A stretch of 64,000 bases of DNA from an uncultured Acidobacteriota bacterium (lineage in GTDB: Bacteria; Acidobacteriota; Thermoanaerobaculia; Gp7-AA8): assembly GCA_937870635.1 (NCBI GenBank), contig CALMZP010000110.1, positions 1 to 64,000 of the forward strand. The letters run 5' to 3'. Shown here piece by piece: positions 11,765-26,130 of the stretch (the stretch's first letter is position 1; each line of letters opens with the position of its first letter). Both the position numbers and the translations under genes were made by a program. A model generated the notes under the pieces. The model was not told where the DNA came from. It worked only from the letters and a program-made list of their open reading frames with translations, and did no database searches.

Positions 11765-12205
11765 ATGCGAACGGTCCTGGCCACTCTCACCGCAGCCCTT
11801 CTTCTCTCGTCGGCGCCCGTGCTCGCCGACACGTCGGCGCAGATGAACGTCAGCGTGCGGGTTCTCGCGCGCGCGACCGTGACGGTCGAAGACCAGCCGG
11901 AAATCGAGATCACGGCGGTGGATGTGGAGCGCGGGTATGTGGATCTTCCGGCAGTCCAGGTCCGCCTGCGCTCCAACAGCCTCAATGGCAGCCTCCTCCA
12001 GGCGACCAAAACCAGCGAGACGTTCTCGAGCCTCGAGCTGGCCTTCGGGAATACGACCATGGTCATCGCCCCGGAGAGTTGGGTGCGGATGCCCTACACG
12101 CGGGGTGGTGAGATCCTGAGCGTCCGCGGGCGGGCACGCCTGGCTCCGGGAGCATCCACTGGCCGCCATCCGCTCCCTGTGCACTTCTCCGCCTCGGCAC
12201 TCTGA
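11765..12205 (+). CDS. Secreted subunit protein of the first chaperone locus (paralogue 1)
   Basis: Encodes 146 residues with a clear signal peptide (MRTVLATLTAALLLSSAPVLA). The mature part is beta-strand rich with no cysteine: VRVLARATVTV, IEITAVDVERGYVDLPAVQV. It is paralogous to the next gene (12483-12953): both share an EIT.(V/A)D(V/I).RG(Y/F)(V/I)(D/E)(L/V)P motif and a G.(H/Y)P.P ending. Its place ahead of a PapD-like chaperone and an outer-membrane barrel suggests a pilus or surface-fibre subunit; this is inferred from context. The frame extends upstream to 11459 but the signal peptide fixes the start. Confidence 0.75.
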   Translation: MRTVLATLTAALLLSSAPVLADTSAQMNVSVRVLARATVTVEDQPEIEITAVDVERGYVDLPAVQVRLRSNSLNGSLLQATKTSETFSSLELAFGNTTMVIAPESWVRMPYTRGGEILSVRGRARLAPGASTGRHPLPVHFSASAL

Positions 12206-12215
12206 ACTACTAATC

Positions 12216-12345
12216 TGGAGTGCGGCAACTCAAGCTGCCGCTGCTGTCCGTTCCCCCCGGCAGCTTGCTGCTCGGCTGGTGCGAGGAACCGCCGCACCAA
12301 CCTGCGGCAAGCCAGAGTGGCGGCAAGCTGCCGCACGCCGCGTTC
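12216..12345. repeat. Copies of the GCGGCAGCTTGCTGCCGC hairpin family
   Basis: The 277-base gap between the two paralogues holds several overlapping inverted copies of GTGCGGCAA/GCTTGCTGC/GGCAAGCTGCCGCAC motifs. The same family appears at 7643, 18625 and, as a near-perfect palindrome, at 28168. The remaining part (12346-12450) is relatively AT-rich and shows no gene. Confidence 0.65.
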
Positions 12346-12453
12346 GCGATGTTCTGTCCGGATCTCGGACGCCCTTGCATTTCTGGACAGTCATTTTCTG
12401 ACGTCGTTGTGCATAAGTCACTCTTTAAAAGCCACTTAACTCGCTTCTGTTGA

Positions 12454-12468
12454 TGGTTTGACCGTTGC
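12454..12468 (+). promoter_or_regulatory. Possible sigma-54 -24/-12 promoter
   Basis: TGGTTTGACCGTTGC has the GG-N10-GC spacing and a TTGC -12 box and ends 15 bases before the ATG at 12483. That is exactly the distance seen upstream of the paralogue at 11765. Initiation would give a near-leaderless mRNA. Confidence 0.3.
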
Positions 12469-12482
12469 GCTGGTAGCCGGGT

Positions 12483-12953
12483 ATGCGACTCCCGGTCACC
12501 GCGCTCGTACTGCTCATCATTCTTCTCTCGGGACCTGCCGTGATGGGCGAGTCGGGTTCCGGACAGATCGTGGTGGGCGCCCGGGTCGCGCCGCATGTTC
12601 GATGGGAAGTGCGGGACGAGCCAGTCCGGCTCGAAATCACTCCGGCGGACATCGCGCGCGGTTTCATCGAAGTACCGGTGGCGCGGCTGCAAGTACAGAC
12701 GAACGATGAGGCGGGTTTCATTGTCGCCACAGCGGTGTCCGGCGATCAGTTCGCGTCGGGTGCCTTGATGGGCCTCGATGAGCCAATCGCCATCGGCGCT
12801 GGCGGCGGATTTCTGCATTTGCCGTTTCGCGGCACCTCTGTGATGGACGCGGAGTTGCGCTGGCGTCTGCCTCTGTCCGAGCGATCGAAGGCTGGTTCGT
12901 ATCCGTGGCCACTTCGTGTCACGGTGCATCCGATCGGCCGCCAAAATCCGTGA
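12483..12953 (+). CDS. Secreted subunit protein of the first chaperone locus (paralogue 2)
   Basis: Encodes 156 residues with a signal peptide (MRLPVTALVLLIILLSGPAV, cleavage near GES). The mature region is beta-rich and paralogous to the product of 11765-12205 (LEITPADIARGFIEVPVARL corresponds to the paralogue's EIT...LPAVQV segment). No cysteines occur in the mature part. Probably an exported structural subunit. The next gene follows closely, so it may be co-transcribed. Confidence 0.75.
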   Translation: MRLPVTALVLLIILLSGPAVMGESGSGQIVVGARVAPHVRWEVRDEPVRLEITPADIARGFIEVPVARLQVQTNDEAGFIVATAVSGDQFASGALMGLDEPIAIGAGGGFLHLPFRGTSVMDAELRWRLPLSERSKAGSYPWPLRVTVHPIGRQNP

Positions 12954-12987
12954 CCGTTTTCTGGAACCTGGGCGACAATGCCGCTGC

Positions 12988-13536
12988 TTGCGGATCAGCG
13001 TCTGTTGCGCCGTGTTTGCGATCGCCTGCCAGGTCATGGCCGGGGCCGAAGGGCGTCATTCGCGGGATGTCGATGATCGGGCGGTGAACGCGCCCCCTGC
13101 CGCGGCCGACCAGGGAATCCGGTCCCCTCTCCGGATCGCGGCAACGAACCCGGCTTCCTCGTCCATCACCTATCGCATCGAGTCAGTTCAGGCCGACTTC
13201 GGAGCGGTATCGCCCGGAGCCCCGAAGGAGATTCTCGGCGCCGCGGTGATCAGGGTTTTCAGCACGGAGCCGTGGACCTTGAAATTCGCCCCCGAGGGTC
13301 CATCCAGCCTGACAACCAGCGGGACAGAATTTCTTCCGATGTCGAGGCTCGCGTGGCGGGCCAACGGCGGAAGCTATCAACCGTTCCGGAGCGCGCAGCC
13401 CGTGACGTTCTCCGCCGGGGGACCGACGGCTGCCGTCGGAACTGAGATCCGCGTCGACTTCCGTCTCGAGGTCGAGGATAACGACCCGTTGAGTCCGCTT
13501 GCTCTCGTGCTGAACATCCTGGCCGAGACCCGCTGA
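12988..13536 (+). CDS. Secreted protein of the first chaperone locus
   Basis: About 182 residues if translation starts at TTG 12988, which gives a signal-like hydrophobic segment (RISVCCAVFAIACQVMAGA). An in-frame ATG at 12916 overlaps the preceding gene and would bury this segment. The mature part is beta-rich with a motif EFLPMSRLAWR, then PVTFSAGG and EIRVDFRLEVEDNDP near the end. This resembles extracellular domains that accompany pilus or S-layer-type proteins, but I cannot name the family. The start codon is the weakest point. Confidence 0.6.
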   Translation: MRISVCCAVFAIACQVMAGAEGRHSRDVDDRAVNAPPAAADQGIRSPLRIAATNPASSSITYRIESVQADFGAVSPGAPKEILGAAVIRVFSTEPWTLKFAPEGPSSLTTSGTEFLPMSRLAWRANGGSYQPFRSAQPVTFSAGGPTAAVGTEIRVDFRLEVEDNDPLSPLALVLNILAETR

Positions 13537-13627
13537 CATCTTGCGGGCCGCCGTTGAGCAGTTTAAACTCGCTCGGGCAGAGAGAGCCCCCCACAATTCA
13601 GGTAACCCGAATGGAGGAGCGGTAGCT

Positions 13628-14212
13628 ATGCGTGTCCGGATTTATTCATTCTTTACCACTCTTGTGCTTGCAGCAATGCCCGTGGCAGCGCAGGTCGGTT
13701 CTGCTGATTCGATCAACGTCAACGCCCAGAACGTCGGCGCGTTCGTTTTCAATATCGCCCAGCCGACTTACAGCTTCGGGCAGATCAGTTCATTGGGCGG
13801 CGACAATGTCGGTGGGACCGAGGTTCTCACGCCATCGACGACAGCGACGAGCGCCACCTACACTTCGAACGCGGCTGCGGTGACGTTCAACGTTGGAAGC
13901 GCGCCTCAGCGGACGGTGTACTTCTACAACTCCTCGGGTGCACAGACCCTCAACTGGGGCACGGCAAACGACCTCGAAGTGCAGGTGGCCGGCGTTGCAG
14001 TGGGAGCCAACTGTGGCTTCAAGGGCGTTGGGGTTACGGGTGACGGTCTTGCCGGAACGTGCGCCAGCGGCAACCTTCATCACAGTCTCACCGGTGTAGG
14101 TCGCGGCGCGAATTCCGTGAACGGAAATCTGCAGTTCCGCGTAACGGTCGATGACGCTGACGTGACCGGAACCAATACCTGGGTCGTGCAGATCACGGCC
14201 GCAGCCCCCTGA
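13628..14212 (+). CDS. Secreted putative major subunit of the first chaperone locus
   Basis: Encodes 194 residues. The ATG at 13628 follows a good ribosome site (GGAGGAG) and starts a signal peptide (MRVRIYSFFTTLVLAAMPVA, cleavage before QVGSA). The mature protein is rich in Asn, Thr, Gly and Ala with predicted strands and a single Cys pair (GANCGFKG ... GTCASG) that may form a disulfide. The strong ribosome site suggests high expression, as expected for a major fibre subunit. It is not a recognisable SCPU domain. Its stop overlaps the chaperone start (TGATG). Confidence 0.75.
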   Translation: MRVRIYSFFTTLVLAAMPVAAQVGSADSINVNAQNVGAFVFNIAQPTYSFGQISSLGGDNVGGTEVLTPSTTATSATYTSNAAAVTFNVGSAPQRTVYFYNSSGAQTLNWGTANDLEVQVAGVAVGANCGFKGVGVTGDGLAGTCASGNLHHSLTGVGRGANSVNGNLQFRVTVDDADVTGTNTWVVQITAAAP

Positions 14213-15030
14213 TGTCCGAAGCGTTGCCCATCCCGATGAGGAGAGCCGCGCAAGCGGCTCTCTTGGTTTTCGCTCTCATCTGCGCGATCCCTGCGAACGC
14301 TGCCATCAGTATCGCCGTCGCTCCGCCACTCGTCGAAAAAGTGGCGCGGCCGGGATCGACGATCCGTGACGTGATTCTGTTCCGCAACGGCGGCACGGAG
14401 ACGCTCGACGTCTCGGTGACGTTCGTCGATTTCAGCGTCAACGTGGACGGCTCGGTCGCGGAGCGCCCGCCCGGGCTCGATCCGACGTCCATTCTCCCGT
14501 ACGCGCAGGTCACGCCGCTTCGTGCGCGAGTCGAGCCGAATCAGCAGGTGAACTTCCGCTACACCATCCGCACGCCTCACGATTTCAAGCAGCTGCGCAC
14601 CATGGTGATGTTCGCAGGGACCCCCCAGGTTGCCACGACAGGCAATCAGGTCGTCTTCGCTCCGCGGGTCGGTGTGCCGCTGTATGTGGAGAGCACCGAG
14701 GCGCGGCCGGCGCAACTCGAAGTGAGCGACGTGCAATGGACCCGATCCAGCGAAACGCCGGAGAAACTCGTCCTTTCCATGGTTGTGAGGAACACGGGCG
14801 ACCGCAACATCCGTCCGACGGGAACGGTGCAGGTGCGTTCCGCTGCCGAGCGGTTCAACCAGACGTTCCCGTTCAACGAAGGACGGGAACCGCTGTTGCC
14901 GGGTCAGAAGCGTGTCTGGAGGATGACGTTCGGACCCGTGCCGGGAGGCGAGCTATCGGTCAGCCTGCGTTTCGCGAAGTCGTTCCGCGACACGTTCGTC
15001 AAAGACGACCGCGTGCCGGCCGCGCAGTAA
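14212..15030 (+). CDS. PapD-like periplasmic chaperone
   Basis: Encodes 272 residues with a signal peptide (RRAAQAALLVFALICAIPANA). Two Ig-like domains are apparent: an N-terminal one beginning AISIAVAPPLVEKVARPGST and a C-terminal one (LEVSDVQWTR, VRNTGDRNIRPTGTV). This is the architecture of pilus chaperones and related DUF-type surface-protein chaperones. It would hold exported subunits in the periplasm and deliver them to an outer-membrane partner. The start overlaps the previous stop by one base. The frame of the following barrel gene is open across the last 300 bases of this gene (see findings). Confidence 0.78.
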   Translation: MSEALPIPMRRAAQAALLVFALICAIPANAAISIAVAPPLVEKVARPGSTIRDVILFRNGGTETLDVSVTFVDFSVNVDGSVAERPPGLDPTSILPYAQVTPLRARVEPNQQVNFRYTIRTPHDFKQLRTMVMFAGTPQVATTGNQVVFAPRVGVPLYVESTEARPAQLEVSDVQWTRSSETPEKLVLSMVVRNTGDRNIRPTGTVQVRSAAERFNQTFPFNEGREPLLPGQKRVWRMTFGPVPGGELSVSLRFAKSFRDTFVKDDRVPAAQ

Positions 15031-15044
15031 CCGCAGCGCTTCTT

Positions 15045-17078
15045 GTGTTCGCGGCAGCGCCGGCGCGATCGCAGGAAGTGACGCAAGGCCCGCAGCGGCC
15101 GCCTACGTCGGGCTACGTGAGCTTTGCGTTACACACTCGCGCCTTCGATGCGCCCGTTTTCGGCAGCAGTATCTCGACCACTCTCTACCTCCACGCAGGC
15201 CAGCGGTTCCAGGACGGCAGTTACTGGACCACGTCCTTCTACCGGGGGTTTCCGCTCGTGCAATCGCTCTTCACGATCGAGGGAGACCATATTCCCTGGC
15301 GCGGCGGTCTCGCAGGAATACGGGCCGGCGAGGTCACACTGCAGCCCATCGGTGATGCCGGTGCCATCGATGCTTACACGATCGAGGGCCTCGCGGCCCG
15401 CTGGCGACGGAAAAACGAAGAATGGATGGTATACGCGGGCGACAGCCGGTATCCAACGGTGCTTCCAGGCTTTCGTGAAAGCGCGCCGCGACTCGGCGGT
15501 GTCGAATACCGCCGGCACTTCGCGAATGCCAGCGCCGGAGGCGCCGTCATCGCGCTCGCAGACGCGACTACACCAGACGGCGATCCGGTTCGCGCCGTCA
15601 TCCGCGGCGACTACGACTACGCGGTTTCTACTGCCACTCAACTCTTCACACGAGGCTATGCAGCCGGTAATGGTTCCACCGCGTTCCGGGTCGGCGCCCG
15701 GTTCGCCGATCTCCGTCGCGAGCTCACAGCATCGATCTTCAGCTTCGACGAGAACTTTCCTCTCGTCTATCCGCTCTTTCGTCCCGGTGAGCGAGGCGGC
15801 GAGCTTTACGGCTCCTACCGTCTCACCGAGCGCTCGCGCGCCTACGGAGTGGTGACTTATCTCTCCAGCGATCGTCTCCTCGGCCGCAGCAATCTTCGCG
15901 GACATCTCGGATATGCGTTCGCCACAGGGTCGGATGGCCCGCGTTTCGACGTTTCTTATCACCGCGACGAGCTCACGCATGACGTGCTCACGGCGACGCG
16001 GCAGGACATCATCGCCGACCGTTTTTCGTTTGGCGTCACTCGCTCGTCGCTGGCCGAATCGCTCGCGGTCCGCCTGGACCATGTGGTCAGAAACGAACAT
16101 CCTCAGCGCACGCAGCTGCTGGCATCTTACGCACGTCTCGTGGGACTCGACTCGACAGCCGACGGCTCGCTCGTCGTCCAGAAAGAGGATGCGACGCTCG
16201 GCGTGACCGCCGAGGGGATGTACGAGAAACCGATCCGATGGCCGTATTCGGTGCGGATCGGCATCGGCGCCGCGTTGATCCATTTCGACGTCGAGGATCG
16301 TGGAGAAGGCGTTGCCCGGATCGGGCTCAGCCGCCGCTTCGTGGGGCAGCTGAGCGGGTGGTACGCGCAGGTCGAAGCGCGCACGAGTTTCGGAATCGGG
16401 CTGCCGCGCAGCAATCTCTCCTCGAACACGATCACGATCGGCTTCGGCAACCGCCTCGGCTGGAACGACCTTGACCATGCTCGCAGCATCTTTGCGTCGC
16501 TCGTGTCGCCGTCGGACTTCGGAGCGGTGGAAGGTCATGTACGCTTCGATGAGAAAGGCCTCGCGAACGTCCCGATCCTCATCGAGGGACGGCGCGTCGC
16601 GGTGACAAGCGGAGACGGCCGATATCGCATCAGCCGTGTGCCGGCCGGAATCGTCTCGGTCACCATCGACACCTCGGTCCTCGAGCAGGGCTTCGTCGTC
16701 AGTGGGCCTGCATCGCGAAGCGTTCTCGTCCCACCTCGCGGAGTCGCGCAGGCGGATTTTGAGATCACCCGCCGTGTTGCTCTCGCCGGGTCACTCTCGC
16801 GATGCGAGGACGGGCAGTTCCTTCCGCTGCGAGGAGCACGGATCGCGATGATTGGCGATCAATTCGTACAGACGGCGACAACTTCTTCGTCGGGTGGTTT
16901 CGAGTTCGATGCTGTCCCTCCCGGTACTTACGAGCTCGTGATCGACCCCGCCTCGGTGCCGGAGGTATCGGCGGAAAACATTCCCCGGCGGCGGGTGGAG
17001 CTCACCGCGGACATGCTCGGTTACGTGATCCTGCTGGAGTGCGATCCGGAAGGCCCGCGGACTCCGCCGTCACCGTAA
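15045..17078 (+). CDS. Outer-membrane beta-barrel with two C-terminal carboxypeptidase-regulatory-like domains (usher-like)
   Basis: About 677 residues. After a signal-like AAAPARSQ the first 480 or so residues show alternating amphipathic strands (YVSFALHTRAF, GGELYGSYRLTERSRAYGVV, SVRIGIGAAL) as in a large outer-membrane barrel. The last 180 or so residues form two carboxypeptidase-regulatory-like/CnaB-type modules (GAVEGHVRFDEKGLANVPIL ... SGDGRYRISRVPAG; GGFEFDAVPPGTYELVIDP). Usher C-terminal domains look similar, but no FimD/PapC barrel motifs are visible. Placed after subunits and a PapD-like chaperone, it may be the translocation pore. No standard start codon precedes the hydrophobic segment, so the start at GTG 15045 is provisional. 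Confidence 0.7.
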   Translation: MFAAAPARSQEVTQGPQRPPTSGYVSFALHTRAFDAPVFGSSISTTLYLHAGQRFQDGSYWTTSFYRGFPLVQSLFTIEGDHIPWRGGLAGIRAGEVTLQPIGDAGAIDAYTIEGLAARWRRKNEEWMVYAGDSRYPTVLPGFRESAPRLGGVEYRRHFANASAGGAVIALADATTPDGDPVRAVIRGDYDYAVSTATQLFTRGYAAGNGSTAFRVGARFADLRRELTASIFSFDENFPLVYPLFRPGERGGELYGSYRLTERSRAYGVVTYLSSDRLLGRSNLRGHLGYAFATGSDGPRFDVSYHRDELTHDVLTATRQDIIADRFSFGVTRSSLAESLAVRLDHVVRNEHPQRTQLLASYARLVGLDSTADGSLVVQKEDATLGVTAEGMYEKPIRWPYSVRIGIGAALIHFDVEDRGEGVARIGLSRRFVGQLSGWYAQVEARTSFGIGLPRSNLSSNTITIGFGNRLGWNDLDHARSIFASLVSPSDFGAVEGHVRFDEKGLANVPILIEGRRVAVTSGDGRYRISRVPAGIVSVTIDTSVLEQGFVVSGPASRSVLVPPRGVAQADFEITRRVALAGSLSRCEDGQFLPLRGARIAMIGDQFVQTATTSSSGGFEFDAVPPGTYELVIDPASVPEVSAENIPRRRVELTADMLGYVILLECDPEGPRTPPSP

Positions 17079-17219: not shown

Positions 17220-18596
17220 GTGCATGGCGCTCTGCTGCCCGCGGCGCTCCTGTCGAACGAATTCGCCTTTCTTTCTGCCAATCAACCCCTTCTCGATCTT
17301 CTCAGTCTGAGCATCGCTCAGATGCGACGGCGGACGCTGTTCGACATCGTTGCCGATCCCGACCGTGAAGGCGCCCGAAGCTTTGGCGACCAGGTCTCGC
17401 GGATGCGGACCGCGGCCCGCAGCCAGCGCGAAGTCCGTCTCACCAGCGGCCAGCATGTGCTGCTGGTCATCCAGCGTCTGACCCGGAAGTCGCTGCCGGA
17501 GTATCTGATCAACATCGTCGATCTCAGCGACTTGATCACGCCGAATCATGATCGCGCCGCTCTGCTCGAGCAGATCAAGGAGGCCGCATGGGAATGGCGG
17601 CGAACGTTCGACGCGGTCGAAATGCCGATCATCATCGTCGGCTCCGACCTCGAAGTCGTGCGCATCAACCGGGCGGCGCGAATGCTCGTCGGCAGGAGTT
17701 ACAGCGAGATCATCGGCACCTCGCTGCGCAACCTCCCGGCGGCCGAGCCGTGGCTCTCGGTGGCGGCGCTGACAGCGCAGGTCCAGGATGCTCGCGCGCC
17801 TGTTGCGCGGCAGGTGAAAGATCCCTCGGGCCGGACACTCGACCTGCTGGCAATGCTCTTCAACATCGAAGATGCTGCCGACCACCGAGTCATCGTGATC
17901 GTGTGGGACGTGTCCGCTCTGGTCGATCTTCAGTCGCGACTCGAACAGCAGCGGCAGATGGCGGCCATGGGCGCGCTCGTTGCCGGCGTCGCGCACGAGG
18001 TGCGTAACCCCCTCTTCGCCATCTCGGCGACCATCGATGCGATGGAGCAGACCGCAGCGCCGGAGCTCCGCGAGTATTTCGAGGTGCTGCGCGAAGAGAT
18101 CGATCGCATGACCAAGCTGATGCAGGATCTGCTTGCGTACGGCCGCCCGGCAGCGCCGGTCTTCGTCGATATTCTCGTGAGTGAAGTCGTGGATGTCGCC
18201 GTCCGCGCTGTCGCCGCGGCTGCCAGGAAAAACGACGTCGAGATCGAGGTCGAGCATCAGTCCGACGCGGTGATCGTCGCCGATCGTGACCGGCTGGCGC
18301 GAGCGATCGAGAATCTCGTCATGAACGCCATCCAGCATTCGCCGGCCGGAGCGGTCGTCAAGGTGAGATCGGGCCGAGGCGAAATCCGCGTCACGGATCG
18401 AGGCAGGGGCTTTACGACGGAAGATCTGCCCCGCGTGTTCGAGCCCTTTTTTTCCAGGCGAAAGGGTGGCACGGGTCTGGGCCTCGCCCTCGTGCATCAG
18501 ATCGTCACCGAGCATGGAGGCGAGATCGTCGCCAGGAACCGCCCCCGCGGCGGCGCCGAGGTCGTGATATCACTGCCGGCGAAGAGTGCGAAATGA
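17220..18596 (+). CDS. Soluble PAS-domain sensor histidine kinase
   Basis: Encodes 458 residues from a GTG. There is no membrane segment. An N-terminal PAS-like domain (1-105) is followed by a second PAS (about 125-235), then HisKA with the phospho-acceptor His259 in GVAHEVRNPL. The HATPase_c domain has an N box (ENLVMNAIQHS), G1 (DRGRGF), F box (FEPFFSRR) and G2 (GGTGLGLAL). It resembles NtrB-class kinases and is followed 51 bases later by an NtrC-class regulator, its likely partner. The signal is unknown. Its position between two pilus/secretion loci suggests it regulates them. Confidence 0.9.
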   Translation: MHGALLPAALLSNEFAFLSANQPLLDLLSLSIAQMRRRTLFDIVADPDREGARSFGDQVSRMRTAARSQREVRLTSGQHVLLVIQRLTRKSLPEYLINIVDLSDLITPNHDRAALLEQIKEAAWEWRRTFDAVEMPIIIVGSDLEVVRINRAARMLVGRSYSEIIGTSLRNLPAAEPWLSVAALTAQVQDARAPVARQVKDPSGRTLDLLAMLFNIEDAADHRVIVIVWDVSALVDLQSRLEQQRQMAAMGALVAGVAHEVRNPLFAISATIDAMEQTAAPELREYFEVLREEIDRMTKLMQDLLAYGRPAAPVFVDILVSEVVDVAVRAVAAAARKNDVEIEVEHQSDAVIVADRDRLARAIENLVMNAIQHSPAGAVVKVRSGRGEIRVTDRGRGFTTEDLPRVFEPFFSRRKGGTGLGLALVHQIVTEHGGEIVARNRPRGGAEVVISLPAKSAK

Positions 18597-18647
18597 GGAT
18601 GTTCAGGAACAGGAGTGCACAGCTTGCTGCCGCGCTGACCGCTCACC

Positions 18648-19991
18648 ATGCCCCGTAATCGCGTACTGCTCGTCGAGGATGACCGGGGCATCCGCTTCGG
18701 GATCCGCAATTTCCTGGTCGGCCGCGACTACGACGTCGAGGAAGCCGAAACCATCAAGCAGGGCGAGGAGCAGTTCCGTCAGAACCGTCCGGACATCGCC
18801 ATCCTCGACTACTCGCTCCCCGACGGCAATGCTCTCGAGGTCCTTCCGCGACTGAAAGCGAGCGATCCCTCGATTCCGGTCATCATCCTGACTGGGCACG
18901 GTTCAATCGATCTCGCCGTGCGCGCCATGAAAGAAGGCGCGGACCAGTTCCTGACGAAGCCCGTGCAGATGCAGGCGCTGCTCGTGATCATCGAGCGGCT
19001 GCTGGACAACCAGCGCATCCGCCAGCGCGAGCAGGCGCGCACCACCACGCAGGCGCGAACGGGCCCGGTCGATCCGTTCATCGGAGTCAGCGACTCGATC
19101 TCGGCGTTGCGCGAACAGGTCACCCGCATCGTGACCACCGACCGTCCCATCCTGATCCTCGGCGAAACCGGCACGGGAAAAAGCGTGCTGGCCTCCTGGA
19201 TCCACAAGAACGGACCGAGGGCCGAGGAGGCGTTCGTCGATTTGAATTGTGCGGGGCTGTCGCGCGAATTCGTCGAGACGGAGCTCTTCGGACACGAGAA
19301 GGGTGCGTTCACCGGCGCCGTGGCGGCCAAGACAGGGTTGCTCGAGGTTGCGCATCGCGGGGTGCTCTTTCTCGATGAGATTGGTGACGTCGACGTGCAG
19401 GTGCAGCCCAAGCTCCTCAAGGTTCTGGAAGAAAAGAAGTTCCGGCGGATGGGGGATGTGCGCGACCGGGTGTCGGATGTGCAGCTGATCGCCGCAACCC
19501 ATCAGGATCTGCACGAATCGATTCGCGAGAAGAAGTTCCGGAGCGACCTGTACTTCCGCATCAGCACGATCCCGTTGACAATTCCGCCGCTCCGGCAGCG
19601 ATCAGCGGACATCCCACTCCTGGCCGAGTTTCTGCTGAACCGCTTCCGGACCGAGATGGGAGCGCCGGGTGTCGAGATCGCCACTCCGGCGATGCGCGCT
19701 CTCCAGGAGTACAGCTGGCCGGGCAACGTCCGGGAGCTGAAGAACGTCATCGAGCGGGCCATCCTTCTTTCCGATCGCCACACGATCACGCCCCGTGACC
19801 TTCGCTTCGAGGCGGAAGGCGACACAGTGCCATCCGGTGTCGTGCCCACGGACATGACACTCGAAGAGATGGAGCGATGGTATGTCGAGCAGATTCTCCG
19901 CGAAGAAAACGGTCATGTTGATTCGGCGGCGAAACGACTCGACATTCCGCGCAGCTCGCTCTATAGCAAGTTGAAGAAGTGGCGTGTCTGA
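18648..19991 (+). CDS. NtrC-family sigma-54-activating response regulator
   Basis: Encodes 447 residues. The receiver domain has Asp11-Asp12, the phospho-acceptor Asp54 (AILDYSLPD) and Lys in LTKPV. The AAA+ domain has Walker A (GETGTGKS), the sigma-54 contact loop GAFTGA at about residue 220 and Walker B (VLFLDEIGD). A Fis-type helix-turn-helix ends the protein (SAAKRLDIPRSSLYSKLKKW). It should bind enhancer-like dyads and remodel RNA polymerase sigma-54 closed complexes. It is encoded directly after the histidine kinase. Candidate binding dyads are noted at 19993 and 20811. Confidence 0.95.
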   Translation: MPRNRVLLVEDDRGIRFGIRNFLVGRDYDVEEAETIKQGEEQFRQNRPDIAILDYSLPDGNALEVLPRLKASDPSIPVIILTGHGSIDLAVRAMKEGADQFLTKPVQMQALLVIIERLLDNQRIRQREQARTTTQARTGPVDPFIGVSDSISALREQVTRIVTTDRPILILGETGTGKSVLASWIHKNGPRAEEAFVDLNCAGLSREFVETELFGHEKGAFTGAVAAKTGLLEVAHRGVLFLDEIGDVDVQVQPKLLKVLEEKKFRRMGDVRDRVSDVQLIAATHQDLHESIREKKFRSDLYFRISTIPLTIPPLRQRSADIPLLAEFLLNRFRTEMGAPGVEIATPAMRALQEYSWPGNVRELKNVIERAILLSDRHTITPRDLRFEAEGDTVPSGVVPTDMTLEEMERWYVEQILREENGHVDSAAKRLDIPRSSLYSKLKKWRV

Positions 19992-21019: not shown

Positions 21020-21511
21020 ATGAAGCGCACCATCAAACTCACGGTTCTCACCCTCGCCCTCACGTTCGTTTCTGTCGCGGCATTCGCGCAGAGCGCGACG
21101 ACCACCAATGCGGCCAACAACATCTCGGCCACGGTCGTCAAGAACTGCCTGATCACCAACTTCGCCCTCGCGTTCGGCAACTATGACCCGACCGCGGCCG
21201 CTGCCACCGACGCGTCGACCACCTTCGACGTTCGCTGCACGAAGGGCACGGTTACTTCCATCCAGCTCGACCTCGGCGTCAACGACGGTGGCACTGGCGT
21301 CCGCAAGATGACGGACGGAACGGATCTTCTCAGCTATGGCCTGTTCACGGATGCGGCCCGCACGGTCGCGTGGACGGTCGCGGCTCCCAAGGCCTACACG
21401 GCTGCCAGCAACGCTCCGGTGACCCAGACGATCTACGGCCGCGTGACCGCGGGGCAGGACGTCCCGGTCGGCAGCTACTTCGACACGGTTCAGGCCACGA
21501 TCAACTTCTAA
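21020..21511 (+). CDS. SCPU (spore coat U)-domain pilin, probable major subunit
   Basis: Encodes 163 residues with a signal peptide ending in AFAQ. The SCPU domain shows the paired cysteines (NCLITNFALAFGNYDP ... VRCTKGT) and the C-terminal consensus YGRVTAGQDVPVGSYFDTV followed by ATINF. SCPU proteins are subunits of archaic chaperone-usher pili. A strong AGGAGA ribosome site and first place in the operon point to the major pilin. It is followed by chaperone, second SCPU protein, usher and tip protein. Confidence 0.92.
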   Translation: MKRTIKLTVLTLALTFVSVAAFAQSATTTNAANNISATVVKNCLITNFALAFGNYDPTAAAATDASTTFDVRCTKGTVTSIQLDLGVNDGGTGVRKMTDGTDLLSYGLFTDAARTVAWTVAAPKAYTAASNAPVTQTIYGRVTAGQDVPVGSYFDTVQATINF

Positions 21512-21546
21512 AAATGAGCCCGATGGAAACACGTTCGCGAGGCAAC

Positions 21547-22323
21547 ATGAATCGCATCACGCTGATGGCGCTTCTTCTCGGGCTGGTCTTCGGGCCAGCC
21601 CGATTCGCCGGCGCGGCCGCGTTCCGGGTCAACCCCATCCGCGTGTCGTTCGACGCGGCCAACACCTCGGCCCTGCTCACCCTCACCAACGAGAGCACGG
21701 AAGAGCTCCGGTTCCAGCTGACCGTATCCGAATGGAAGCAGGCCCCTGGCACGGGTGCGATGCAGCTGACACCGACCGACGACATCCGATTTTTTCCTGC
21801 GCTGCTGGCGCTGAAGGCGGGTGAAGAGCGGAAGGTGCGTGTCGCCTCGAACGCCACCCAAGGACCCGTGGAGAAGACCTATCGCATTTTCTTCGAGGAG
21901 CTGCCCGCGCTGAAGAAGGCGGATGCTGCCGGCGGAGCCAGCGTCAAGATCATCACGAAGATGGGAGTTCCGATCTTCGTCGCGCCCGAAAAGCGGAAAG
22001 CGCAGGCGGATCTCGCCAACGCTGCCGTGAAGGACGGAAAGCTCAGATTCGACGTCAGGAACAGTGGAAACGTTCACTTCGTCGTGCTCTCGGCACGGGC
22101 GACGGGACTCGACCGCGAAGGGAACGTCCTCTTCGACAAGCAGCGTGAGGGGTGGTACGTGCTCAACGGGGACACCCGGACGTACGAGCTGGATCTCGCC
22201 GGGAAGGAATGCTCCGATCTGGCGACGGTTCGTTTCGAGCTGCAGACGGATATCGGATCGAAGCCTGAAGAGTCACTGATCAAGCGGGAGTTCACACCGA
22301 TCACGGGGAGTGGCTGCAAGTAA
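21547..22323 (+). CDS. Archaic-type pilus assembly chaperone (PapD family)
   Basis: About 258 residues. The start is taken at ATG 21547, preceded by GAGG and opening a signal peptide (NRITLMALLLGLVFG); in-frame ATGs at 21514 and 21523 only add a charged leader. The N-terminal Ig domain reads FRVNPIRVSFDAANTSALLT with the family's YRIFFEELP strand, and a second Ig domain follows. It would stabilise SCPU subunits by donor-strand complementation in the periplasm and pass them to the usher at 22883. Confidence 0.9.
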   Translation: MNRITLMALLLGLVFGPARFAGAAAFRVNPIRVSFDAANTSALLTLTNESTEELRFQLTVSEWKQAPGTGAMQLTPTDDIRFFPALLALKAGEERKVRVASNATQGPVEKTYRIFFEELPALKKADAAGGASVKIITKMGVPIFVAPEKRKAQADLANAAVKDGKLRFDVRNSGNVHFVVLSARATGLDREGNVLFDKQREGWYVLNGDTRTYELDLAGKECSDLATVRFELQTDIGSKPEESLIKREFTPITGSGCK

Positions 22324-22356
22324 CGGTCGGACGTGATCGTGCGAGCGAAAGTCATC

Positions 22357-22872
22357 ATGAGAGGAATGGGGACAGCAGGACTTGCGATGATCATCGCGAT
22401 TGCGCTTTCCGCGCTTGCGGCAAGCCGCGTCGTGGCCTCGCAGGTGTCAGGCACGATGGAAGTGTCAGCTGTCGTCGTTCCCAATTGCCGGTTCACGCTC
22501 ACCGCGCTGAATTTCGGCTCTTATGATCCGCTCGGCGCGCACCAGACGACGGGCCTCGATGCCACCGCGACCGTCGTGCTGAGCTGTACGCGCAACTCGC
22601 AGGCCACGATCAGCATGGATCAGGGACGGAATCCAGTCGCCGGAACGGAGATGCGCGGACTGGTCCAGCTCGACCAGGTTCTCCGGTACCAGATTTTCCG
22701 GGACACGAGCCGCACGGAGGTGTGGTCGACCGGCGCGAACGCTGTGAGTTTTCAGGCCGACGGCAACAACGGGCCGCGCTACGAATTCACCGTCTACGGC
22801 AGGATTCCCGCCGCGCAGGAAGTCGCCGCCGGAATGTACACTGACGTCGTGACTGCGACAGTCGATTTCTGA
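22357..22872 (+). CDS. SCPU-domain pilin, minor subunit
   Basis: About 171 residues from ATG 22357 (a GTG at 22333 is an alternative), with a signal peptide ending VVAS. The SCPU signature is present: NCRFTLTALNFGSYDPLGAH, VVLSCTRNS and the end VYGRIPAAQEVAAGMYTDVV then TATVDF. Sits between chaperone and usher. Probably an adaptor or minor pilin. Confidence 0.88.
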   Translation: MRGMGTAGLAMIIAIALSALAASRVVASQVSGTMEVSAVVVPNCRFTLTALNFGSYDPLGAHQTTGLDATATVVLSCTRNSQATISMDQGRNPVAGTEMRGLVQLDQVLRYQIFRDTSRTEVWSTGANAVSFQADGNNGPRYEFTVYGRIPAAQEVAAGMYTDVVTATVDF

Positions 22873-22882
22873 GCGAACGAAT

Positions 22883-25228
22883 GTGCGCGAACGATCGATC
22901 CCGCTGTTCCTGCCCGGACGTTTCCTGAGCCTCGCGATCACGGTTCTCTTCTCGTTCAACCTCTCAGCTCAGGACGCCGACATCGTCCTGCCGCTCACAC
23001 TGAACGCGCAGCCTCGGGGCGAGGTTTTCGCGCGGGTGTCGGGCGATGACATTCTCCTGCGTGTCTCCGATCTTTCCAGGATGGGCCTCAGCGGAAAGCT
23101 CTGGGAAACTCTGGTGGAGCTGGAGAAAAATCGAGGGGCGCAGTCCGTCGATGGCGAAATGCTGATCTCGCTCTCCAACGCCGCGCCTCACCTGACCTTT
23201 CATTTCGACGAGGCGAATCTCGAGGTCGCCGTCACTGCCGATCCAGGGCTTCTGAAACCGACGGAGTTGAATCTCCGCGGGAGCAGGCCGCAGAACATCG
23301 CTTACTCACGGGACTCGAGCTTCTTCCTGAACTACGCGGCGTCGACACGGAACCTCGGCTCCATCTCAGCGTTCGTGGAGACGGGTGCGAGCTTCCGGGG
23401 AAATCTGCTCCTGAATACGCTCTCACGATCGCCATCGGGAGAGGTGATCCGCGGGATCACGAATCTCACGATCGATGACCGCCCCAACCTCCGGCGATGG
23501 ATCGCGGGTGACGCGACCGTCGTGACCGACGCTCTGGGAGGAAGCGCGCTGCTCGGCGGCGTGACCGTCTCCAAGTTCTACGGCCTCGATCCGTACTTCG
23601 TCAGGTTTCCGTCGCTCGCCGTGACTGGCGCGACCGTCACTCCGGCGGAAGTCGACGTCTACCTGAACGGACAGCTCGTGTCGCAGAGGAGCGTACCGCC
23701 GGGCTCCTTTCAGCTGAGCAACCTTCCGGCGACGGCCGGCGCGGGCGATCTTCGCGTCGTGATCCGCGACGTGTACGGCCGCGAACAGGTCATCACCAAC
23801 CCTTATTACTACTCGACCGCTGTCCTTGCAGAGGGATTGAACGAGTACACCTACTCGATCGGTGCGCTCCGCCGGGGATTCGGATCGACGAGTTTCGACT
23901 ACGGTGATCCCGCCCTCCTCGCTCATCACCGCAAAGGCATCACGCAGGCGTTGACCCTTGGGGGGCGGGTCGAGGCCAGCCGCGGTCTGCTGTCGATCGG
24001 ATCCACCGCGGGGCTGCGCACCCGCGCCGGCGACGTCGATCTCGGGCTCGCGGCGAGCGAGTCGAGCGGACGCAGCGGTTTTGCCGCGCAAGCCGGCTAT
24101 CAGTATCTGGCGAGGCGCTACAGCTTCGGCGGCCGGGTGAGAGTGTTTTCGGATCATTACGCCACGACATCGCTCACCGCGGACATCGACCGGCCTCTCG
24201 TCGACGGTTCGGTCTTTGCCGCGATTCCGATCCCTCGCGGAAGCGTGGGGGTCCAGTACTCCAGTACCGACAACCGCGACGGGGCCGACCTGAGCCGCGC
24301 CACGGTCTCGATGAATATCACCCTCGCCAGATCCGTCAGCTTCTTCATGTCCGCGGCCGGCATCGACGACGGCTCTCGTCGCTTCGGCGAATATTTTGCC
24401 GGCCTGTCGTTCTACCTGGGCGGCAGCACGACGGCGAACGCCGGCGTCCGCCAGATCGACGGCAGTCAGGAACTTTCCCTCGACGTCCAGCGCCCCCTGC
24501 CCGTGGGAACCGGATATGGTTACCGGCTCAGCGCGCGGACCGGCGACGACGAGGAGCGCGATGGCACGAGCGTCCTCCAGTACCAGACATCGTTCGGGCG
24601 CTATGAAGCGAGCCTCGACCCCTTCGCGGATGACCGTGATGTCTCCCTCTCTGCGACCGGAGGCTTGATCTATCAGCGCGGCGCGCTCCTCTTCTCACGG
24701 GCGGTTCAGGAAAGTTTTGCTCTGGTCCGTGTGCCCGGGGTTCCGAACGTCCGGGTCTACGCTTCGAACCAGGAGGTTGGACGCACCGACCGGAACGGCA
24801 ACCTTCTCGTCCCGAACCTGCTGCCGTACTACGGCAACCCCCTTCGCATCAACGATCGGGACATCCCTCTCACCTACGCGGTGCAGGAGGTGGAGAGGGT
24901 CGTCGCCCCTCCGAGCCGCGGCGGCGCTTATGTCGAATTCGCGGTGTCGGCGATCCGGACCATGACCGGGTCGGTCGTCGTAACCGGCAATTCGGCAGTG
25001 CGCACTCCGTCGTTTGGCCAGATCACTCTCACCAGGGAAGGTTCTGAACACGAATCTCCGCTTGGACGTCAAGGAGAGTTCTATTTTGAGGATGTTCCGA
25101 ATGGCCGCTACCGCGCCACCATTGAATCCGAAGAGGGTAGCTGTACGTTCGAACTGACGGTGCCATCCGGCACGGAACCGGTGATCGACCTTGGCCGGTT
25201 GACATGTTCCAATGAGGGTTTGCCATGA
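22883..25228 (+). CDS. Archaic chaperone-usher pathway outer-membrane usher
   Basis: Encodes 781 residues from GTG 22883 (an ATG two bases earlier is out of frame). Signal peptide, then an N-terminal domain (IVLPLTLNAQPRGEVFARV), the usher barrel, and motifs typical of FimD/PapC ushers: VDVYLNGQLVSQRSVPPGSF with NLPATAGAGDLRVVI, YYYSTAVLAEGLNEYTYSIG and FDYGDPALL. The C-terminal domain reads GQEFYF-like (GEFYFEDVPNGRYRATI). It forms the outer-membrane pore for pilus secretion. It overlaps the tip gene by four bases. Confidence 0.93.
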   Translation: MRERSIPLFLPGRFLSLAITVLFSFNLSAQDADIVLPLTLNAQPRGEVFARVSGDDILLRVSDLSRMGLSGKLWETLVELEKNRGAQSVDGEMLISLSNAAPHLTFHFDEANLEVAVTADPGLLKPTELNLRGSRPQNIAYSRDSSFFLNYAASTRNLGSISAFVETGASFRGNLLLNTLSRSPSGEVIRGITNLTIDDRPNLRRWIAGDATVVTDALGGSALLGGVTVSKFYGLDPYFVRFPSLAVTGATVTPAEVDVYLNGQLVSQRSVPPGSFQLSNLPATAGAGDLRVVIRDVYGREQVITNPYYYSTAVLAEGLNEYTYSIGALRRGFGSTSFDYGDPALLAHHRKGITQALTLGGRVEASRGLLSIGSTAGLRTRAGDVDLGLAASESSGRSGFAAQAGYQYLARRYSFGGRVRVFSDHYATTSLTADIDRPLVDGSVFAAIPIPRGSVGVQYSSTDNRDGADLSRATVSMNITLARSVSFFMSAAGIDDGSRRFGEYFAGLSFYLGGSTTANAGVRQIDGSQELSLDVQRPLPVGTGYGYRLSARTGDDEERDGTSVLQYQTSFGRYEASLDPFADDRDVSLSATGGLIYQRGALLFSRAVQESFALVRVPGVPNVRVYASNQEVGRTDRNGNLLVPNLLPYYGNPLRINDRDIPLTYAVQEVERVVAPPSRGGAYVEFAVSAIRTMTGSVVVTGNSAVRTPSFGQITLTREGSEHESPLGRQGEFYFEDVPNGRYRATIESEEGSCTFELTVPSGTEPVIDLGRLTCSNEGLP

Positions 25229-26130
25229 GAAAGACCGTAACACTGGGGCTGATGATGTTGGTTTGCGTCCCCGCCGCCTGGGCGAACTGCAACTGGAACC
25301 AGGCGCCGGCCGCTGTTGACTTCGGAATGTATCTGGCAATGAGCGGCGGAACTTTGACCGCCACGTCGCCATTTCGAGTGCGCTGCACTCCCAGCTCGCA
25401 GGGGCAAGTCGTCATCTCCGCGGGAACCCCTCCCGCAAGCTTCACACCGCGGACCCTCAAGGGACCCGGTGGCGCGACCCTGCCTTACAACCTCTTCCTG
25501 GATGCCACGTACACGGCGATCTGGGGGGACGGAACGGGGGGGTCCGCCGTGCCCGCGGCGTATATGACAGGGCCGGGAGGGGGGAACACCTACTTCGACG
25601 GCACCATCTACGCGGCACTTCCCTCGGGGGCGGACGTTCCCCCGGGCATCTACACCGATACGGTCGGCGTCGATATCGTCGATGGAAAGAGCAGAGATTC
25701 CACGACGATGACGATCACGACCATCGTCGGACGCGAATGCACGGTCTCCGCCTTTTCGATCAGCTTCGGCAACTACGACACGGTCGGCGCCAATGATGCG
25801 GCTCCGCTCGATGCAACCGCCCCGATCGATGTTCGATGCACCGCCGGCACCACCGCGACGGTGGCGCTCGGCACGGGGATGCATTTCAGTGGCGGAGTGC
25901 GCCGCCTGATGAGCGCCGCCGGCGTTTATCTCGGCTACAACGTGTTCACGGATGCGGCTCGCGGGGCCGTCTGGGACAACCTCATGGTGAAGTCCGGAAC
26001 CTCCGTCTCGATGAACACGCCCGTCACGCTCAATCCCGGGGGTTCGGTGCTGTTCGGCCGCGTCTTCGCCGGCCAGGATGTTCCGGCCGGAACCTATACG
26101 GACACGCTGCAGGCCACCGTCAATTACTGA
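25225..26130 (+). CDS. Two-domain SCPU protein, probable pilus tip adhesin
   Basis: Encodes 301 residues, starting in an ATGA overlap with the usher stop. After a signal peptide ending AWAN there are two SCPU modules. The first (about 20-150) has VRCTPSSQGQV and YAALPSGADVPPGIYTDTV. The second (about 160-301) has CTVSAFSISFGNYD and FGRVFAGQDVPAGTYTDTL followed by QATVNY. Two-domain subunits placed last in archaic pilus operons usually cap the fibre and bind the target. The duplication makes it the largest subunit here. Confidence 0.88.
   Translation: MRKTVTLGLMMLVCVPAAWANCNWNQAPAAVDFGMYLAMSGGTLTATSPFRVRCTPSSQGQVVISAGTPPASFTPRTLKGPGGATLPYNLFLDATYTAIWGDGTGGSAVPAAYMTGPGGGNTYFDGTIYAALPSGADVPPGIYTDTVGVDIVDGKSRDSTTMTITTIVGRECTVSAFSISFGNYDTVGANDAAPLDATAPIDVRCTAGTTATVALGTGMHFSGGVRRLMSAAGVYLGYNVFTDAARGAVWDNLMVKSGTSVSMNTPVTLNPGGSVLFGRVFAGQDVPAGTYTDTLQATVNY

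Follow-up and report, generated by a model that had tools for sequence, protein, structure and literature searches.

Gene content of the locus

The window analysed here is the 64,000-nucleotide stretch at positions 1 to 64,000 of contig CALMZP010000110.1 (C110; assembly GCA_937870635.1), part of a 4.5 Mb genome in 171 contigs from an uncultured Acidobacteriota bacterium of the class Thermoanaerobaculia. On its forward (+) strand, between positions 11765 and 17078, it carries an operon for four secreted proteins, a PapD-like periplasmic chaperone and a large, usher-like outer-membrane barrel, and this operon looks like an overlooked branch of bacterial surface-fibre machinery. The open reading frames of all six genes were confirmed at the place and on the strand given by a first-pass annotation, made by a model from the sequence alone.

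The first two genes encode the secreted proteins A (11765–12205, 146 aa) and B (12483–12953, 156 aa), each with a signal peptide, which are paralogues as previously proposed (26% identity, E 7e-13 in pairwise BLASTP). They are followed by P3 (12916–13536), a secreted protein whose GTG start is uncertain and overlaps B, and by P4 (13628–14212 from its ATG, 194 aa), a secreted pilin-like protein. The chaperone gene (14212–15030, 272 aa) has a start codon that overlaps the P4 stop (TGATG), and the barrel gene reaches to 17078, encoding 707 aa if it starts at the candidate AUC codon at 14955. An archaic chaperone-usher operon lies about 4 kb away (21020–26130) and is normal, as the first-pass annotation had it, with Pfam matches to SCPU, PapD_N and Usher (PF00577, E 8.6e-32).

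No Pfam family matches A, B, P3 or P4. In profile comparisons with the subunits of a sister system (L056), P4 scores 94% and P3 79%, and the match persists at 83% and 81%, respectively, once signal peptides are removed. An apparent kinship of P4 and A/B to SCPU (87–89%) was an effect of the signal peptides and disappeared with them. The operon thus has no SCPU-type subunit in either the Pfam scan or the trimmed profile comparison, and the earlier description of its subunits as neither SCPU nor any Pfam pilin stands. P4, which is kept in all five systems compared below, is likely to be the main subunit, while A/B-type proteins were seen in one of the four relatives only (G013), where a homologue of A precedes P3.

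A PapD-family chaperone of a separate clade

Family libraries hardly recognise the chaperone: in Pfam no family matches it, PapD_N remaining below its cut-off, and NCBIfam gives a single weak fimbrial-chaperone match (PRK09918, E 0.0024). For the sister L058, PapD_N gives E 3.9e-4. The chaperone profile retrieves the archaic chaperone of the same genome (E 6.8e-4), and its comparison with nine archaic chaperones gives 96% over 217 columns (E 4.8e-9); a PDB sequence search with the same profile returned no informative relative, and a chaperone search of the genome contigs found two loci only. In a maximum-likelihood tree, the 9 archaic chaperones are split from 18 others by a branch with 100/99 support, and chaperones from Deinococcus fall on the non-archaic side, with the 18-member group. 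An EPxLP motif, common to both main groups on the non-archaic side, stands at the position of (W)YVL in archaic chaperones. Judged by the profile match, the tree split and this motif, the window chaperone is a member of the PapD family with a clade of its own.

The C-terminal carboxylate anchor of the archaic chaperone CsuC consists of Arg89, Tyr196 and Arg174 (PMC4654587). With the CsuC residues placed by inference, as CsuC itself was not in the alignment, an invariant Arg of the chaperones lies at most two columns from the archaic strand-F1 Arg, and the Tyr of the archaic GWYVL motif is replaced by Pro.

Conservation and distribution

Full-length barrels with 29–38% identity are encoded in four other genomes, all from other genera: Thermoanaerobaculia bacterium Chersky.31_28 (G013, same family), G018 (same order), Acidobacteria bacterium ALJrbin.24 (G055, same class) and G227 (same phylum). 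The chaperone gene (37–50% identity at the protein level) directly precedes the barrel gene in all four, and the two genes abut or overlap in 5/5 species. Homologues of P3 accompany P4 and the chaperone in each relative; the order P3-P4-chaperone-barrel, for which the first-pass annotation had suggested a survey, is kept in three of the four, whereas G055 has P4 ahead of P3. In G018, P4 is duplicated. The pairing of chaperone and barrel in these four relatives, at 29–51% identity, shows that the locus is not a product of chance.

The barrel itself is rare (3 of 396 sampled genomes of the phylum). The neighbourhoods retrieved for chaperones of the clade mostly encode between one and four secreted proteins, some 170–230 aa long, and a large outer-membrane-type protein of 700–1050 aa; all eight large proteins scanned have CarboxypepD_reg/SdrD_B modules near the C terminus and none matches Usher. 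A search with the chaperone profile found the clade in 20/396 sampled Acidobacteriota genomes, and Pfam ushers (PF00577) were found in 10/297, so that much of the chaperone-dependent surface assembly of the phylum would escape surveys based on PF00577. G018 has the operon and no PF00577 usher in its genome.

A tblastn search of plasmids with a distant barrel as query found an analogous operon in Deinococcus sp. NW-56 and D7000 (plasmids NZ_CP026517 and CP058536; L102 1291–6864 and L103 1241–6843), and a plasmid search with the window chaperone gave no match. These operons encode a secreted protein, a chaperone (97.7% to the window family over 222 columns), a P3-like protein (82.5%) and a large protein of 1013–1018 aa with Ig-like N-terminal domains, two C-terminal modules (73.9% to the window family over 130 columns) and no Usher match; all their genes are annotated as hypothetical. 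Together with the Acidobacteriota operons (L055–L060, L064–L066, L068 and L069), the two Deinococcus loci share with the window the same chaperone clade, secreted subunits and a large protein whose C terminus holds two CarboxypepD_reg/SdrD_B modules; they differ in that the sequences of their barrels can hardly be aligned outside these modules and in that additional N-terminal domains, of the Cu_amine_oxidN1 or Ig-like type, are present in some. The Cu_amine_oxidN1 domain is found in the sister large proteins of L068 and L069 (G203 and G243), at the place of the usher N-terminal domain, and the L069 protein has a SPOR domain at its end.

At the syntenic site of another genome of the same family (G009, L067, C75:91500–106500), flanked by Etf genes and by the sensor kinase also present in the window, there is a different gene set. 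It comprises chaperone-like and subunit genes together with those for a beta-helix protein and for a protein of 1136 aa that ends in a CarboxypepD/SdrD_B region, which suggests that one system replaced another at this site.

The outer-membrane barrel

In the barrel, Pfam recognises CarboxypepD_reg (PF13620, E 1.9e-12) in two stretches at the C terminus, the modules that had already been read from the sequence, and the other regions are without a Pfam match. No Usher match appears in it at E up to 5, and the PF00577 signature is absent from every scanned barrel of the group, the neighbouring archaic usher alone giving a match; at the sequence level, the earlier statement that the barrel shows no recognisable usher signature therefore holds. 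The two modules, predicted beta-sandwiches at 16518–17036, occupy the place of the C-terminal domains CTD1 and CTD2 of ushers, and are co-linear with those of archaic ushers (94%, 129 columns). CarboxypepD_reg is also matched by the window's archaic usher, at the corresponding C-terminal place, so usher C-terminal domains can look this way to Pfam. The G013 barrel (L027 5484–7898, minus strand) has an extra Pro-rich linker after the second module and then a tail of about 120 aa that looks helical and may be TPR-like.

We modelled the barrel with AlphaFold2 from three sequences. In the model, antiparallel strands run through residues 29–479; 23 are built, and the unmodelled residues 76–117 leave room for one to three further strands, so that 24–26 strands are likely. 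There is no plug-sized insertion in the model or in the alignments, and no separate N-terminal usher domain, the strands starting right after the signal peptide in a region modelled at low confidence. The first-pass annotation had proposed strand number and plug as the features that would tell a divergent usher from a new pore, and the two point in opposite directions: the predicted number of strands, about 24, is that of an usher, but the missing plug is not usher-like.

Foldseek comparison of the model with the PDB places FimD at ranks 1–9 (E 3e-13 to 2.5e-11), with PapC soon after, and the first non-usher barrel in the list is LptD (E 4.4e-3). FimD and PapC, known from solved structures, are thus the best predicted fold matches over the barrel and C-terminal domains, although the window barrel shares only about 11% identity with them and has neither plug nor N-terminal domain. 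We call the barrel usher-like because the barrel and the two sandwiches come in that order and are found together with the neighbouring chaperone. Membership of the usher family is not claimed, since the Usher signature, the plug and the N-terminal domain were looked for and none was found.

A candidate AUC start inside the chaperone gene

The start of the barrel gene is unusual. In the barrel frames of the window, G013 and G055, no ATG, GTG or TTG yields a whole signal peptide; such codons are found only within or after the hydrophobic core (about 15024–15068 in the window) or, for the window, at the distant upstream position 14736, a mechanically called start that is very unlikely to be the real one. 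Inside the chaperone gene, the window carries at 14944–14957 the sequence GGAGGCGAGCTATC, a Shine-Dalgarno-like GGAGG followed by the candidate AUC start. The corresponding motif, GGAGGNGAGCTATC, is located inside the chaperone gene of four species (window 14944–14957; L070 2622–2635; L028 7534–7547; L071 1952–1965) and, one wobble base aside, is identical between the window, G013, G018 and G055. In these four, the chaperone residues GGELS are coded GGA GGN GAG CTA TCS (S being C or G), a codon choice that places an AUC in the barrel frame, six bases downstream of GGAGG. CTA makes up 1.5–2.2% of the Leu codons in the open reading frames of these loci, and its use in 4/4 species (P about 1e-7 under codon usage) is a clear outlier among 56 invariant columns. 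In the window, G013 and G055, the AUC-started product would have an Arg-rich n-region of 22–23 residues followed, at equal distance, by the hydrophobic core. In G055, an in-frame stop six bases upstream of the AUC shows that the start cannot lie further upstream.

The 14-mer occurs once per genome in the four species, at the place of the candidate barrel start. It is also present in 38/147 genomes of the class, mostly elsewhere, and is therefore too common to prove a start by itself. Nor is the signal universal: G018 has an additional GTG further downstream, and in G227 the motif is absent and TTG codons are present. The likeliest reading of this region is a weak but conserved AUC start served by a strong ribosome-binding site, and as a candidate start we consider it probable. 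A natural purpose would be to keep synthesis of the pore low relative to the chaperone. If true, the conserved AUC start would be a second, independent surprise of this system. A programmed -1 frameshift from the chaperone into the barrel was considered and set aside: no slippery heptamer was seen near the junction, and the signal peptide would sit inside the fusion.

Assembly model and alternative explanations

All together, these observations lead us to propose that the operon probably works as a divergent chaperone-usher pathway, whose usher-like pore lacks both plug and N-terminal domain. This is argued by the conservation of the gene set in five genera and its presence in Deinococcus, by the full-length homology of the chaperone with its archaic PapD counterparts and its monophyly with those of operons having subunits and a two-module large outer-membrane protein, and by FimD and PapC as the best PDB folds, together with C-terminal modules co-linear with archaic usher domains. 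The earlier suggestion that the system lies outside the chaperone-usher world is not sustained by the last two results, nor by the CarboxypepD_reg match of the neighbouring archaic usher.

In the proposed model, A, B, P3 and P4 would cross the inner membrane by their signal peptides and be captured by the chaperone, presumably lending a strand. The complexes might then dock at the two C-terminal domains, seemingly the only periplasmic domains of the barrel, and the subunits would exit through the pore to the surface. Donor-strand exchange, which we infer from the chaperone, would probably yield a thin fibre or linear polymer.

Several results weigh against this proposal. The barrel part shows no sequence similarity to archaic ushers outside the C-terminal modules, and the similarity of the modules is not usher-specific, because the PDB sequence matches of the barrel profile are NOMO2 and SdrD, neither an informative relative. 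The model is modest, with a mean predicted local distance difference test (pLDDT) score of 59.5 and parts of the barrel below 50 (the C-terminal modules reach about 67–89, mostly 80 or more), and the TM-scores of the fold matches are low (0.29). Neither half of the fold match is usher-specific alone: the C-terminal modules by themselves match Gram-positive surface proteins and pilins (about 1e-8 to 1e-4 in Foldseek), and ushers trimmed to their barrel match the model at about 5e-3 to 1e-2. For P4, AlphaFold gave no usable structure from an alignment of three sequences (pLDDT 31), and an incomplete Ig fold with an N-terminal donor strand is thus only putative for the subunits.

One alternative is a pore of separate origin, a non-usher barrel that acquired its CarboxypepD-like modules on its own and through which single subunits or proteins of a surface layer would be exported without forming a fibre. 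The lack of an Usher signal in any member, of a plug and of an N-terminal domain would all fit such a pore, as would the quite different N-terminal domains of other members (Cu_amine_oxidN1, Ig-like) and the fact that the barrel halves of solved ushers match no better than LptD or OmpU. The domain order, the kinship of the chaperone and the ranking of the fold matches, however, all favour ushers, and we regard a separate origin as unlikely and a wholly new pore as probably not what the barrel is. More improbable still, the barrel might be an unrelated outer-membrane protein, the subunits leaving through the archaic usher of the genome. LptD and OmpU do appear as weak fold matches, but FimD scores better by ten orders of magnitude, the operon exists in G018 without a PF00577 usher, and the barrel gene adjoins that of the chaperone in every species. 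The operon is not an artefact or a decayed archaic copy: a normal archaic operon with a related chaperone does lie 4 kb away, but the well-supported split of the chaperones, the lack of SCPU subunits and the intact reading frames, kept in four other genera, already contradict a diverged or decayed archaic origin, which is highly improbable, and bear out the earlier view of a separate chaperone-dependent system.

Compared with the archaic (sigma) pathway, exemplified by Csu pili (PMC4654587), the divergent chaperone-usher pathway proposed here has in common a PapD-type chaperone, small secreted subunits, the operon layout and a large barrel that ends in two beta-sandwich domains. It differs in its separate chaperone clade with EPxLP in place of (W)YVL, in having no SCPU subunits, and in a barrel devoid of Usher signature, N-terminal domain and plug. 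In the literature searched, we found no paper on a plug-less usher or on a chaperone-usher system joined with carboxypeptidase regulatory-like domains.

Ushers are considered to need the plug for gating the pore and the N-terminal domain for catching chaperone-subunit complexes. If our proposal is true, this operon offers a natural usher-like barrel without either, in which the parts essential to the mechanism become directly testable. A more far-reaching version, which we put forward only tentatively, is that of a further branch beside the classical, alternative and archaic ones, present in Acidobacteriota and Deinococcota and invisible to family libraries, with a pore lacking plug and N-terminal domain whose gene, in this clade, would start with a conserved AUC inside the chaperone gene.

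Neighbouring regulators and repeat element

Between the divergent operon and the archaic pilus operon, the window encodes a PAS histidine kinase and a sigma-54 response regulator (17220–19991), and sigma-54 activators also flank two of the distant chaperone/barrel operons (L055 and L059). A search for a sigma-54 promoter upstream of the operon gave fewer matches than in shuffled sequences, none convincing. Because of the adjoining histidine kinase and sigma-54-type regulator, and of the activators beside distant systems, expression of the operon is likely to be regulated. In the gap between A and B (12215–12345) lies a G+C-rich inverted-repeat element resembling repetitive extragenic palindromes or miniature inverted-repeat transposable elements, with a strong RNA fold (z -2.7) and about 20 full or partial copies genome-wide.

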